A program made the translations under genes and the position numbers. 50,411 nucleotides of DNA. Origin: Planctomycetota bacterium (lineage in GTDB: Bacteria > Planctomycetota > Phycisphaerae > Phycisphaerales > UBA1924). The DNA lies in the NCBI GenBank assembly GCA_024276195.1, contig JAJRXR010000009.1, positions 1-50,411 of the forward strand, written 5' to 3'. The notes below the pieces were generated by a model. That model did not search any database, was not told the origin of the DNA, and saw only the letters and a program-made list of their open reading frames with translations. This document shows positions 9,221 through 15,371 of the stretch, in pieces; positions within the stretch are counted from its first letter, which is position 1, and each line of letters begins with the position of its first letter.

Positions 9221-9286
9221 CCGAGCCGCGAGCGTGAGCTCGCGAATCCCGGTGGGTTCAAGCGCGAGCTCACGCTCGCGGCTCGG
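9221..9286. repeat. Perfect 24-bp inverted repeat between genes
   Basis: The arm at 9221-9244 is the exact reverse complement of 9263-9286, with an 18-base spacer. The pairing continues imperfectly outward (TTTCTTT before, AAAGAAA after). The element fills the gap between the zinc-ribbon gene and the end of mgtE, both on the minus strand. The same 24-base arm occurs again, identically, inside the dinB gene at 14823-14846, so this is a dispersed element and not simply a terminator. Confidence 0.9.
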
Positions 9287-12115: not shown

Positions 12116-13498
12116 ATGGGCTGCGACGGCAACAACGCCACCCCGCCCAGCCCCGCGATTGCCCCCGGGGCGGGCGAAATCGACCCTCGCCGGGTCGCTG
12201 AGAGACTCGTCAATCGCTTCGGCGAGGGCGGGATGGACCCCCGTGTCCGCGCTGTCACCCCCGATTTCAACGCCCCGTTCTTCCAGGCGGGCCTGGCCGG
12301 GTACTCCGACGCGGCCATGCGGATCATCGCCCGCAGGCACGGGTGCCCCTTCTGTGTCACCGAGGCCCTGCTCGACCGGACCCTGCTCGCCGGGGGGCGC
12401 GGCTTCGCCAAGGCCGACCTGGGCGAGATCGAGAGCAACATCCCCGGCGGCGCCGAGGACCGCCCCCTCGCCGGTCAGATCATGGGCTCCGAGCCCAGCG
12501 AGATGGCCGCCGCCGCGATCAAAATGATCGAGCAGGGCGCCCGGCGCGAGAAGGAATACCGGGCCATGGCCTCCTCCCCCGCTCCAGGCGAGGGAGGTGT
12601 CGAGCGCAGCGAGACGGAGGGGGTCCGCCCGGCTTCGCACGCTTTCGCCGCCATCGACGTCAACCTTGCCTGCCCGGTCAAGAAGGTCGCCAAGAAATCC
12701 CGCGGCGGGCACTGGCTGACAGAACCAACCGGCGCGATTAAGATTCTCGAAGCGGTCCGCGAGGCGGCGCCCTCGGGCATCGCCGTCACGGTCAAGATGC
12801 GCCGCGCCTACGACGAGACCGACGAGATGCGCGCCAACTTCCTGCGCATCTTCGACGCCGCCTACGACATCGGGTGCGCCTGGGTGACGGTCCACGGGCG
12901 CACCGTCACCCAGAAATACATCGGCCCGAGCCGCTGGGATCCGATCCGCGAGCTCGTCCAGCGCAACCCCGACCGACTCATCTTCGGCTCGGGCGACATC
13001 TGGACCGTCGCCGACATCTTCCGCATGCTCGACTACTGCTCGACTCCCTCCTCTTCCTCCTCATCCTCGTGGCACGGGCGTCCCGCCCGTGTCTCTTCTT
13101 TCTCTTCTTCTTCTCCCACCCTCGCTGGCGTCTCCGTCGCCCGCGGGTGCATCGGCAACCCCTGGGTCTTCCGCCAGGCCCGCGACATCCTTGCTGGGCG
13201 CGAGCCCAAGGCCCCCACGCTGCAAGAGCAGCGCGCCGTCCTTCTCCAGCACTTCGAGCTGGCGATGGACGTCAACCGCCTCTTCACCCGGGGCCATGGC
13301 GAGGCGAAGGAAGAACGGGCCGAGCACCACACCGCCAGAACCATGCGTAAGTTCGCCATCCGCTTCGCCGAGCATCACCCGGATTCACACGCGGTCCGCA
13401 AGCGGTTCATCGCGTGCAAGACGATGGAGGAGTGGCGGGGGGGGCTCTCTGAGCACTATGTGGATACCAGAGAGGGAGGTATCGATGCGAACAGTTGA
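12116..13498 (+). CDS. tRNA-dihydrouridine synthase with in-frame palindrome insertions
   Basis: FMN-dependent reduction of uridine to dihydrouridine in tRNA. The family order is clear: FQAGLAGYSDAAMR at the barrel entry, NLACPVKKV with the catalytic Cys, VKMRRAYDET, VTVHGRTVTQKYIG, FGSGDIW and ARGCIGNPWVF. The protein is 460 residues from the ATG at 12116; a later ATG at 12233 would give a more usual N-terminus. It exceeds the usual length partly because of two foreign-looking stretches, residues about 152-176 and 307-338, the second almost all Ser/Pro around a coded palindrome. Both fall between conserved blocks and keep the frame. The last 20 residues enter lower-GC DNA and overlap the next gene by 14 bases. 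Close to DusB in motif style, but the subtype is not certain. Confidence 0.88.
   Translation: MGCDGNNATPPSPAIAPGAGEIDPRRVAERLVNRFGEGGMDPRVRAVTPDFNAPFFQAGLAGYSDAAMRIIARRHGCPFCVTEALLDRTLLAGGRGFAKADLGEIESNIPGGAEDRPLAGQIMGSEPSEMAAAAIKMIEQGARREKEYRAMASSPAPGEGGVERSETEGVRPASHAFAAIDVNLACPVKKVAKKSRGGHWLTEPTGAIKILEAVREAAPSGIAVTVKMRRAYDETDEMRANFLRIFDAAYDIGCAWVTVHGRTVTQKYIGPSRWDPIRELVQRNPDRLIFGSGDIWTVADIFRMLDYCSTPSSSSSSSWHGRPARVSSFSSSSPTLAGVSVARGCIGNPWVFRQARDILAGREPKAPTLQEQRAVLLQHFELAMDVNRLFTRGHGEAKEERAEHHTARTMRKFAIRFAEHHPDSHAVRKRFIACKTMEEWRGGLSEHYVDTREGGIDANS
12572..12642. repeat. Palindromic insert within dus (first)
   Basis: A stretch with the imperfect inverted repeat CTCCCCCGC ... GGCGAGGGAG followed by GAGCGCAGCGAGACGGAGG. 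It encodes the non-conserved peptide MASSPAPGEGGVERSETEG between the helix EKEYRA and the conserved strand AAIDVNLACPVKK. Family members normally need only a short connection here. The exact edges of the insert are estimated. Confidence 0.5.
13073..13091. repeat. Triloop palindrome within dus (second)
   Basis: CACGGGCG, loop TCC, CGCCCGTG: an eight-base perfect stem with a three-base loop. It is flanked on both sides by pyrimidine-rich sequence, so that positions about 13036-13128 encode a Ser-rich linker (PSSSSSSSWHGRPARVSS...) between RMLDY and the conserved GVSVARGCIGNPW. The frame is preserved. Confidence 0.8.
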
Positions 13499-14357
13499 AG
13501 TTGGATACAACGTGGATGATATCTGGCCAGATGTCTGCAAGTTCTACGAAGCAATCTTGACGGAGCTAGGAGAATGCCGATCAGGCGATGCGTGTTGTAT
13601 TGACCTGACGGATTGCCGCTATCTAGGCCCCGACGCCGCAGTCTTGCTGTACGCATTCTGGGCCAAATACAGACAGGCAGGCGTTGATGTTCAAGTGAAG
13701 TTGCCGAGTGACCCACCCGCGCTTGCGGGCTTCTGTAGGTTCTCGGGATTGGAGCACTACCTTTGCGGAGGGTCTAGCCCAACCTTTGATCACGCGAAAA
13801 GCGAGACAGTGCCGCTCACTCAGGTCTATACCGCTCACTGGAATGTTGGTGAACCCCTTGTTCGTCTGGTGCGGGACCATCTAGATGAGCTGAGTCTGGA
13901 TAGTGCCGATTATCTGAAACTGTCACTGTCGGAGGTCATCCAGAACATCGACGATCACGCGCAGTCGATGATCGGCGGGATCTGGTGCGGGAGGTATTTT
14001 TCAGGGAAGAAGAGTGTTCGGATAGCGGTTGCTGACATGGGGAAAGGCATCCAGGAAACGCTCTCGAGACGCTTCGAGGTCGAGAGTGCCGTTGCCGCGT
14101 TACGCATGGTGACCGAAGGAGGGCATTCCAGTTTGTCCCGTATGAACAATATGGGGCTTGGTATCTCGAACTTGGTGACTTGGATCAAGCACTGCCGAGG
14201 CGTATTATCGCTTGTCTCCGGGGAGGCTGTCGCACTGATCACGGAATCAGGCGCGGATCTGGAGATCCGTCCATTGCGAATAGCTTTCCCGGGTACAGCA
14301 GTGTTCTTTACGTTGCCGGTTGAGGAGGCCGATATTGCTCACGATGAGCCAGATTGA
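13485..14357 (+). CDS. STAS-like/GHKL ATPase fusion regulator
   Basis: A 290-residue soluble protein. The ATG at 13485 has a strong AGGGAGGT ribosome site and lies inside the 3' end of dus. Residues about 30-90 resemble a STAS-type fold (CCIDLTDCRYLGPDAAVLLYAFW). The C-terminal half is a histidine-kinase-like ATPase without a phosphoacceptor-His domain: N box SEVIQNIDDHA with Glu150 and Asn154, G1 box VADMGKGI with Asp184, and G2 box MGLGISNL. This combination recalls anti-sigma/switch kinases of the SpoIIAB/RsbW type, with the antagonist-like domain attached. The next gene encodes a STAS-like protein and overlaps it by 23 bases. GC is clearly lower than in neighbours, which suggests acquisition. 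No sigma factor is nearby, so the target is unknown. Confidence 0.8.
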   Translation: MRTVEVGYNVDDIWPDVCKFYEAILTELGECRSGDACCIDLTDCRYLGPDAAVLLYAFWAKYRQAGVDVQVKLPSDPPALAGFCRFSGLEHYLCGGSSPTFDHAKSETVPLTQVYTAHWNVGEPLVRLVRDHLDELSLDSADYLKLSLSEVIQNIDDHAQSMIGGIWCGRYFSGKKSVRIAVADMGKGIQETLSRRFEVESAVAALRMVTEGGHSSLSRMNNMGLGISNLVTWIKHCRGVLSLVSGEAVALITESGADLEIRPLRIAFPGTAVFFTLPVEEADIAHDEPD

Positions 14358-14640
14358 CGCAAAAAGAGTAATCGGTGATGCCGCCACCGTGGTAGATGCT
14401 GCCAAACGAGTTGGGAAGGCGTCTATCGCTGCGCTTGAGCAAGGTGGAGAGGTCAATGTGAGTCTTCAAGAGCTCAACGGCCTTTCTTCAAGCTTCTTCA
14501 ACGTACTGTTTTTGCTTGTCTTGAACAATCTGGGCGCCGATGCTCTTCGCGGTCGTTTGCATCTGACGTTTTCGTCTGCGATTCAACGAGACACGGCGGA
14601 TCGATCACTGAAAGCCGTCTTGGCATCCGCAGGGATGTAG
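14335..14640 (+). CDS. STAS-like DUF4325 protein
   Basis: A 101-residue protein. The TTG at 14335 is chosen because AGGAGG ends six bases before it; an ATG three codons later (14344) is the alternative. Residues NVSLQELNGLSSSFFNVLFLLVLNNLGADALRG match the core of DUF4325, a STAS-like family, in which a conserved Ser-rich turn precedes the helix. It overlaps the ATPase gene, so the two are very likely translated as a pair. By analogy with SpoIIAA/SpoIIAB it could be the phosphorylatable partner of that ATPase, with one of the serines in LSSSFF as acceptor; this is inference. Base composition is low, as in the ATPase gene. Confidence 0.75.
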   Translation: MLTMSQIDAKRVIGDAATVVDAAKRVGKASIAALEQGGEVNVSLQELNGLSSSFFNVLFLLVLNNLGADALRGRLHLTFSSAIQRDTADRSLKAVLASAGM

Positions 14641-14678
14641 TTATTTTGATTCGATCTTTGGGCCTCCGTGGAGTTGGT

Positions 14679-15371
14679 GTGCCAAGTTTGCACCGCTACG
14701 AATCTGGTCTCCCCTCCGATCTCCTCTCCACCTGGCGAGCCATCTTCGAGCGCCAACGCGCCTTCGCCGAGCACGCCTTTGACCAGCTCGACGACGCCCG
14801 GTTCTTCACGCCGCCCTCCGAACCGAGCCGCGAGCGTGAGCTCGCGCACGCTGGCGCCACGACAGGCGGGACGCCTGCCCCACCACAATCAGGCATGCCT
14901 GTCCCACCAAAATCAGCCATGAACTCCGTCGGTGTCATCACCCGCCACATGGGCGCCAACATGCTCAGCCGCTGGACCGACTTCCTGACTGCCGACGGCG
15001 AGAAGCCCTCCCGCGACCGCGACGCCGAGCTTGCGCCCTTCCCCGAGCCCATGACGCCCGACCAGCAGCGCGAGGCGCGCGCACAGGTCATGGAGACCTG
15101 GGGTGCTGGCTGGAGCACGCTCTTTGCCGCCCTCGACGGGCTCAGCGAGGACGACCTCTCGCGCACCGTCACGATCCGCTCGGCCCCGCACACCGTCCAC
15201 GGCGCCATCGCCCGCCAGCTCGACCATTACGCCTTCCACGTCGGGCAGATCAACCTCATCGCCCGCCAACTCGTCGGGACCGACCGGTGGCGGTGGTTCA
15301 CGCTCCCCCCGGGCGGCACGCGCGAGTTCAACGAGCGAATGCGCCGCCAGTACTCGGGAACCGAGCCCTGA
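14679..15371 (+). CDS. DinB-superfamily protein (DUF1572-like) with a repeat-derived insert
   Basis: A 230-residue four-helix DinB-fold protein, probably a metal-dependent enzyme of unknown substrate; bacillithiol-dependent transferases share this fold. Conserved segments are STWRAIFERQRAFAEHAFDQL, NSVGVITRHMGANMLSRWTDFL with a metal-ligand His, and ARQLDHYAFHVGQINLIARQL with two more. The GTG at 14679 has GGAG five bases upstream; other frames open at 14646. The N-terminus lies at the end of the low-GC cassette, so the original start may have been replaced. Between DARFFTPP and NSVGVI lies a roughly 34-residue segment (SEPSRERELAHAGATT...) coded by dispersed palindromes; relatives pass directly from one block to the other. 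Confidence 0.8.
   Translation: MPSLHRYESGLPSDLLSTWRAIFERQRAFAEHAFDQLDDARFFTPPSEPSRERELAHAGATTGGTPAPPQSGMPVPPKSAMNSVGVITRHMGANMLSRWTDFLTADGEKPSRDRDAELAPFPEPMTPDQQREARAQVMETWGAGWSTLFAALDGLSEDDLSRTVTIRSAPHTVHGAIARQLDHYAFHVGQINLIARQLVGTDRWRWFTLPPGGTREFNERMRRQYSGTEP
14823..14901. repeat. Compound palindrome block within dinB
   Basis: Three elements lie side by side. Positions 14823-14846 are identical to one arm of the intergenic inverted repeat at 9221-9244. Positions 14863-14877 form CAGGCG, loop GGA, CGCCTG. Positions 14890-14901 are the perfect palindrome CAGGCATGCCTG. Both of the latter are followed by a C-rich CCCACC. All are translated in frame within the DinB-like protein. Confidence 0.88.

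Follow-up and report, generated by a model that had tools for sequence, protein, structure and literature searches.

The closest described relatives of the locus reported here are two kinase-substrate systems, CapKS and VapKSC (PMC13373217, EMBO J, 9 June 2026). According to the available text of that paper, CapK has an HTH-STAS-GHKL architecture and CapS a STAS domain followed by a winged helix-turn-helix (wHTH), and VapK is a STAS-GHKL protein accompanied by VapS and VapC. Single-stranded DNA (ssDNA) activates CapK, which phosphorylates CapS whether its HTH is present or not; whether ssDNA also activates VapK lay beyond the authors' tests. For the VapKSC system of Escherichia sp. E4736 (PDB 9Z7O), the same text places VapS S48 (counterpart of the CapS phospho-site, S54) within the VapC interface, with S48E no longer neutralising VapC and residues 94–116 of VapS needed for the VapC block, and predicts VapK F54 (CapK W68) to be an ssDNA contact; phage protection was abolished by S48A and by VapK F54A (PMC13373217). 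A two-gene form without wHTH or VapC is not described in the available text of this paper, the sole relevant one found, preprints aside.

The DNA analysed here (hereafter the window) is a stretch of 50,411 nt from a Planctomycetota bacterium of the Phycisphaerales, in which a two-gene cassette lies behind dus. Judged from its sequence, the pair belongs with CapK/CapS and VapK/VapS/VapC and forms part of its own clade of two-gene cassettes. This brings DUF4325, a Pfam family with almost no literature, together with its STAS-kinase partner, into a signalling family whose first description dates from 2026. The reading favoured here, and rather probable, is that the pair is a kinase-substrate switch of the CapK/CapS and VapK/VapS type, in a two-gene form without known output, whose partner is encoded elsewhere.

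Organisation of the locus

The initial annotation had recognised two overlapping genes behind dus, a STAS/GHKL gene (gene 1) and a DUF4325 STAS-like gene (gene 2), and both were confirmed (Table 1), with gene 1 overlapping dus on one side and gene 2 on the other. A promoter and terminator scan returned a weak hairpin (14623–14638) and a weak promoter-like site (14620–14647).

Table 1. Features of the cassette and its flanking genes, in window coordinates.
Feature	Position	Strand	Basis or remark
dus, tRNA-dihydrouridine synthase	12116..13498	+	Pfam Dus E=1e-36
Last codons of dus, cassette sequence	after about 13458		Match to same-genus dus ends at 13458
Inserted segment, about 1236 nt, replacing 34 nt of the congeners	13459..14694	+	Alignments to empty sites L058 (G392) and L059 (G393)
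Gene 1, STAS-GHKL kinase, 290 aa, VapK/CapK-like without HTH	13485..14357	+	
Gene 1 STAS domain, residues 1–95, RsfB/RsbV-like	13485..13769	+	
Gene 1 Trp59 codon	13659..13661	+	Aligned to L103 Phe54; taken as VapK F54/CapK W68 counterpart
Gene 1 GHKL kinase domain, residues 105–282, SpoIIAB-like	13797..14330	+	
Gene 2, DUF4325 STAS-like, 98 aa, VapS-like without VapC-blocking tail	14344..14640	+	Alternative start TTG 14335
Gene 2 Ser49 codon, predicted counterpart of VapS S48 phospho-site	14488..14490	+	HMMER alignments to 9z7o_A
DUF1572/DinB-like gene, downstream	14646..15371	+	Pfam DUF1572 2.4e-45

Distribution and clades

Two-gene cassettes were patchy in the Phycisphaerales and AT-rich compared to their hosts, and tended to lie immediately after housekeeping genes (dus, glyS, mnmE, thiC). 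Within the family of the window, 18 of 164 genomes had a match at E ≤ 1e-15, spread over 18 of 74 genera; at the level of the order 33 of 401 genomes matched at E ≤ 1e-5, some to the ATPase part only, and at the level of the class 40 of 397 at E ≤ 1e-15. A single-protein query of the phylum matched 25 of 392 genomes (E ≤ 1e-5), nearly full length in three, the window's included. The genome that holds the window had one kinase match and one DUF4325 match, both the window's own, and a second substrate or kinase was accordingly dropped. Carriage by phages or plasmids was also rejected: gene 1 matched five plasmid and six phage records, all at 20–30% identity and mostly to the ATPase part, viral contigs scanned with gene 1 and with a VapC relative yielded no confirmed relative, and the PIN protein of locus L103 had no match among phages.

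A tree of 34 kinases, built without L107 (stop), L185, L187, solo kinases, or distant kinases, divided into three clades: A (15 rows, including the window; 100/99), B (8 rows, 5 of them behind glyS; 100/98), and C (11 rows with a third, PIN-domain gene; 100/98). The branching order of the clades is not relied on because long branches join A and C, as the tree program warned. Clade A includes loci from genomes labelled Deltaproteobacteria (L160) and Planctomycetaceae (L170), and its kinases are about 34–44% identical to the window kinase. Gene 2 follows gene 1 in all 16 clade-A loci, and reading through their gene lists no conserved third gene was noticed.

Kinase and substrate

Gene 1 joins an RsbV/RsfB-like STAS domain to a SpoIIAB-like kinase domain with the GHKL serine-kinase fold of SpoIIAB/RsbW, and as the STAS domain starts at residue 1, the N-terminal HTH of CapK is absent. 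This fusion, which had been called unusual, is the normal architecture of VapK and, with an HTH added, of CapK in the available text (PMC13373217). Gene 1 alone had no match among solved structures, and the match of a PADLOC DrmA model to its GHKL part (4.4e-9) was read as the shared ATPase fold. Six kinase-motif residues are identical in all 34 kinases. The position read as the STAS phospho-site is Pro in 23/23 kinases of clades A and B, suggesting that the STAS domain of gene 1 is probably not itself a phosphorylation substrate. Trp59 occupies the column of L103 Phe54, which is aromatic in 10/15 clade A, 0/8 clade B, and 1/11 clade C kinases; its assignment as an ssDNA-contact residue, made through L103 Phe54, which shares its number with VapK F54, is suggestive at best.

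Gene 2 is a single domain of 98 residues (predicted structure, pLDDT 96) with no winged HTH after the STAS. Taken alone it scored 21.4 bits against DUF4325 (PF14213; curated cut-off, 23 bits), had no match among solved structures, and returned nothing under E 0.2 in a Foldseek fold search. DUF4325 was matched at E ≤ 0.01 by 20 of 24 gene-2 relatives (best, 2.1e-19), and a profile of the clade-A gene 2 had one significant match among solved structures, the Escherichia VapS (9z7o_A, E = 9.4e-8; next, 0.35). Ser49 aligns with residue 66 of that chain, taken as S48 from the chain length. The position is Ser in 16/16 clade-A proteins and Ser or Thr in 13/13 of clade C; in clade B it is Pro or Ala in 8/8, with Ser at the next position and Thr at the preceding one. 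Past the conserved Arg87 there are 11 residues in the window protein, 9–18 in 15 of the 16 clade-A proteins (41 in L171), and 26–35 in all 13 VapC-linked clade-C proteins, and the VapS region that blocks VapC (94–116) is absent, gene 2 ending at residue 98. The earlier description of a GHKL kinase with a STAS antagonist is upheld, and homology supports the kinase-substrate pairing of the two gene products well.

A classical anti-sigma/anti-anti-sigma switch (SpoIIAB/SpoIIAA, RsbW/RsbV) acting on a sigma factor encoded elsewhere would fit the kinase domain, for which SpoIIAB is the best fold match. The gene-2 profile, however, matches VapS, with no SpoIIAA or RsbV chain among its five matches up to E 10, the window kinase has a STAS domain of its own, which RsbW and SpoIIAB are not known to have, and no sigma-factor gene was noticed beside the cassette on reading the list of open reading frames; such a switch is considered improbable.

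A profile search for a VapC relative in trans gave no match at E ≤ 0.01 in 11 genomes, in a run with no positive control and for a window assembly that is 91% complete. Another alternative is that the pair is a decaying and functionless vapKSC remnant that has lost the toxin and the tail of VapS. The lack of an adjoining VapC, the short end of gene 2 (11 residues past Arg87, against 26–35), and an in-frame stop in one of the 16 clade-A kinases (L107) would agree with decay. In contrast, the two-gene form is a separate clade (100/99) whose members remain about 34–44% identical to the window kinase, no internal stop was seen in the other 15 clade-A kinases, and the kinase motifs and Ser49 are invariant, which argues against a dead remnant since it would not keep these; the chance of such a remnant is regarded as quite small.

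Under the favoured reading, a kinase-substrate switch, DNA damage or phage replication would yield ssDNA, which gene 1, by analogy with CapK, would probably sense in the groove between its STAS and kinase domains. Active gene 1 would then phosphorylate gene 2 at Ser49, as its conservation and the VapS S48 and CapS S54 sites suggest. In its unphosphorylated state gene 2 may be bound to a partner, or to itself, from which phosphorylation would free it. With no adjoining VapC and no winged helix for DNA, the partner of gene 2 would have to come from another part of the genome or be a common protein of the host. A branch of this kind, which keeps the alarm without the known outputs, offers a clean test of what gene 2 binds when DNA and VapC are absent.

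Probable insertion between dus and the DinB-like gene

The site is empty in two same-genus genomes (G392 and G393), where dus runs straight into the DinB-like gene and the dinB ATG overlaps the dus stop (ATGA), a start that is gone in the window. The window can be aligned to these congeners up to 13458 and again from 14695, with about 1236 nt in between against 34 nt in the congeners. At the ends of the insertion, no direct repeat of at least 7 nt was found between 13401–13520 and 14601–14740, which share one inverted 7-mer, and no target duplication was found. In a tree of dus the window groups with G393 (100/98) and next with G392 (100/99), and because two successive sister genomes show a clean dus-dinB junction, insertion in the window lineage is favoured. 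Insertion of the cassette between dus and the DinB-like gene in this lineage is therefore supported, in agreement with the acquired module of the initial annotation, and homologues that are always inherited vertically with dus at the same GC were not what was found.

No other part of the 50 kb window is as low in GC as the two genes (13485–14357 and 14344–14640; 53.9% vs about 68%), and the low GC first noted was confirmed. Across 36 loci (clade A, 16; clade B, 7; clade C, 13), 35 had a cassette lower in GC than its flanks of 3 kb per side (mean, 7.4 points lower; exception, L123), compared to a mean of +1.0 (sd 2.8) for 199 control blocks from the same loci, none of which reached −10 and 2.5% of which reached −5. 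This sample leaves out loci with duplicate ids, the solo kinases (L070, L071, L124–L128), and partial or more distant loci (L116, L118–L120, L173–L175, L180, L188–L195). Cassette GC also tracks the host, from 37% in a 45% region to 67% in a 72% region. Low GC in these cassettes is a lasting trait and not a clock; the view that low GC by itself marks recent import is weakened, and GC as proof of recent transfer was discarded because 35 of 36 cassettes are AT-richer than their own flanks and follow their host. Low GC in such cassettes should be read with caution, as a habit of the family.

The same habit, being no sign of recency, agrees with the alternative that the cassette has long belonged to the dus operon, descending vertically until the congeners lost it. 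Two other genera (L101 and L102) likewise have a module after dus; the L101 module has an identical gene order (dus-gene1-gene2-dinB) and groups with that of the window (91/97), and a single clade of all three dus-site modules was not rejected (p-AU 0.31). The L102 module (dus-gene1-gene2), though, groups in the 34-kinase tree with L066 (92/96), which lies behind another gene, and its position is unresolved in the dus-site tree; a genome from the same genus as L102 (G408) has dus and then a dinB-like gene. Furthermore, G393 and G392, the successive neighbours of the window in the dus tree, both carry the ATGA junction, which loss would have had to restore repeatedly. Vertical descent is held to be unlikely, with a share of the probability that is still appreciable.

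Since the first gene overlaps dus, it probably uses the dus transcript, and the overlaps suggest that read-through from dus and coupled translation probably drive expression of the cassette. Of the earlier claim on transcript use, the overlap stands as observed and the use itself as probable.

Upstream genes and a possible link to tRNA enzymes

Among 20 tabulated loci of clades A and B (L111, L160, L171, L118, and L180 fall outside the table), an upstream gene in the same orientation overlaps the kinase start or lies no more than 45 nt from it in 17. The upstream genes include dus (3), glyS (6, in two clades), thiC (2, one by reading), an acyltransferase, a MoxR ATPase, and others, with mnmE lying 86 nt from its kinase. 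Identities were assigned by Pfam (window dus, thiC in L106, HIT, MoxR, acyltransferase, glyS in L110 and L170, and mnmE), by similarity to the window dus (L101 and L102), or, for the remainder, by reading the sequence. A plain explanation would be that cassettes are retained at sites served by a constant transcript. What had been described as coupling to tRNA modification is a place of insertion, as relatives lie behind many other genes, and given the variety of upstream genes a dedicated link to tRNA modification was not retained as the principal interpretation.

It is conceivable that gene 2 serves as a damage-gated brake on translation factors, its target being the protein encoded by the preceding gene (Dus in the window, GlyRS or MnmE at other loci). 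tRNA enzymes account for 4 of the 12 distinct clade-by-site upstream genes of clades A and B (dus, glyS in both clades, and mnmE), a count made after the pattern had been seen and with no background count, and pheT is upstream in one clade-C locus (L121). The other eight sites have unrelated genes (acyltransferase, thiC, MoxR, debranching enzyme, and others), and this reading is thought very improbable.

A broader and speculative proposal, to which a low probability is given, is that cassettes with only the kinase and substrate constitute a third, undescribed branch of CapKS/VapKSC, of mobile, damage-gated, effector-free switches. These would have attached themselves to housekeeping operons, several times to those of tRNA enzymes (dus, glyS in two clades, and mnmE; pheT in the sister clade), and would target a conserved protein of the host, perhaps the translation machinery itself. 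If so, an enzyme of the host itself would replace the VapC RNase as the output.

Comparison with known systems

Immune genes near clade A were sought among 92 proteins (at least 100 aa, within 4 kb; seven of these proteins from the window) from the 16 loci, and PADLOC (E ≤ 1e-10; the 2023 version of PADLOC-DB, which newer defence systems may escape) matched only three RtcR-type models and mad2, each in one member. Around the 13 clade-C loci, 60 neighbours matched 158 PADLOC models, the 25 listed being type I specificity subunits, IetA, and mad5. L103, a clade-C locus, has a type I methylase as a neighbour, and a piece of its PIN protein matches the VapC of 9Z7O (4.5e-8); the PIN protein and kinase of the more distant L121 had no match among solved structures.

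The window pair resembles VapKSC in having a STAS-GHKL kinase followed, in the same gene order, by a DUF4325 STAS-like substrate with a predicted phospho-serine. It differs in that no VapC (PIN) adjoins, the third gene being DUF1572/DinB-like, in that gene 2 is without the C-terminal VapC-blocking tail of VapS, and in that the pair is embedded behind a housekeeping gene with no clear defence gene among the scanned neighbours. With CapKS it shares a STAS-GHKL kinase and a STAS substrate with a conserved Ser, but the window kinase has no HTH, the substrate no winged HTH, and no immune operon lies downstream. RsbW and SpoIIAB are not known to have a STAS domain of their own, whereas the window kinase carries one and its partner is DUF4325/VapS-like. 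The RsbT/RsbS-RsbR stressosome, like the window pair, combines STAS proteins and a GHKL kinase in a stress module; the differences are that no RsbR-like sensor was noticed and that gene 2 of the window matches VapS by sequence.

Repeats and inserts around the cassette

The DNA on both sides of the two-gene cassette, which comprises the STAS-GHKL kinase gene (gene 1) and the DUF4325 STAS-like gene (gene 2), holds a short repeat and two coding inserts. The genome of the window has 39 copies of the 21-nt repeat (≤1 mismatch allowed), while 4 copies occur in G392 and none in G393, both genomes of the same genus, or in G325, from the same family. Copies are frequently paired in inverted orientation with ~44 nt between partners, and one copy lies within the coding sequence of the DinB-like gene. 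This looks like a young family of palindromic repeats that is able to insert into coding sequence. The low-complexity inserts in the Dus protein are in frame, and one of them combines a Ser-rich run with a 10-pair hairpin (13071–13093).

Repeat and insert positions within the window
Feature	Positions
21-nt repeat	9221–9286 and 14823–14843
Low-complexity inserts, in frame, in the Dus protein	12570–12640 and 13040–13115

Variation among related loci

Among the loci of clade B (L110–L115, L117, and L118), several of which have glyS upstream, the position in gene 2 corresponding to the phospho-site serine of VapS (S48) is Pro or Ala in 8/8, flanked by Thr and Ser, and the protein has a short C-terminal tail of its own. 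Gene 2 of this clade may use a different phospho-site.

Profile searches identified a single ORF joining the kinase and DUF4325 domains at L174, L189, and L190, and the same arrangement occurs on a Nostoc plasmid (NZ_AP025734.1, 1914–3158), where the N-terminal part of a DUF4325-annotated protein is gene-1-like. Other STAS-kinase relatives stand alone, with no gene-2 match (L070, L071, and L124–L128), several adjoining methylase-like or toxin-antitoxin-like genes, as named from a reading of the sequence. A distant relative of the kinase at L195 (2557–6329), followed by a small gene, sits between atpD (Pfam) and an apparent ATP synthase epsilon gene (by reading), with 40.7% GC compared to 54% regionally. 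At a site other than dus in G392, a partial, weak kinase relative occurs at a contig end (L120, 4244–4789; 54% GC compared to 70% for its contig).

For the three-gene loci, the PIN-domain gene is apparently shortened or split at L069 (9355–9543) and L187 (5665–6223), with the kinase and STAS genes still open; judged from these two loci, toxin loss does seem to occur. Plasmid P5 of Deinococcus gobiensis carries an operon resembling vapKSC, in which the annotation names an ATP-binding protein, a STAS-like protein, and a PIN protein; directly upstream lies a gene for an HTH regulator.
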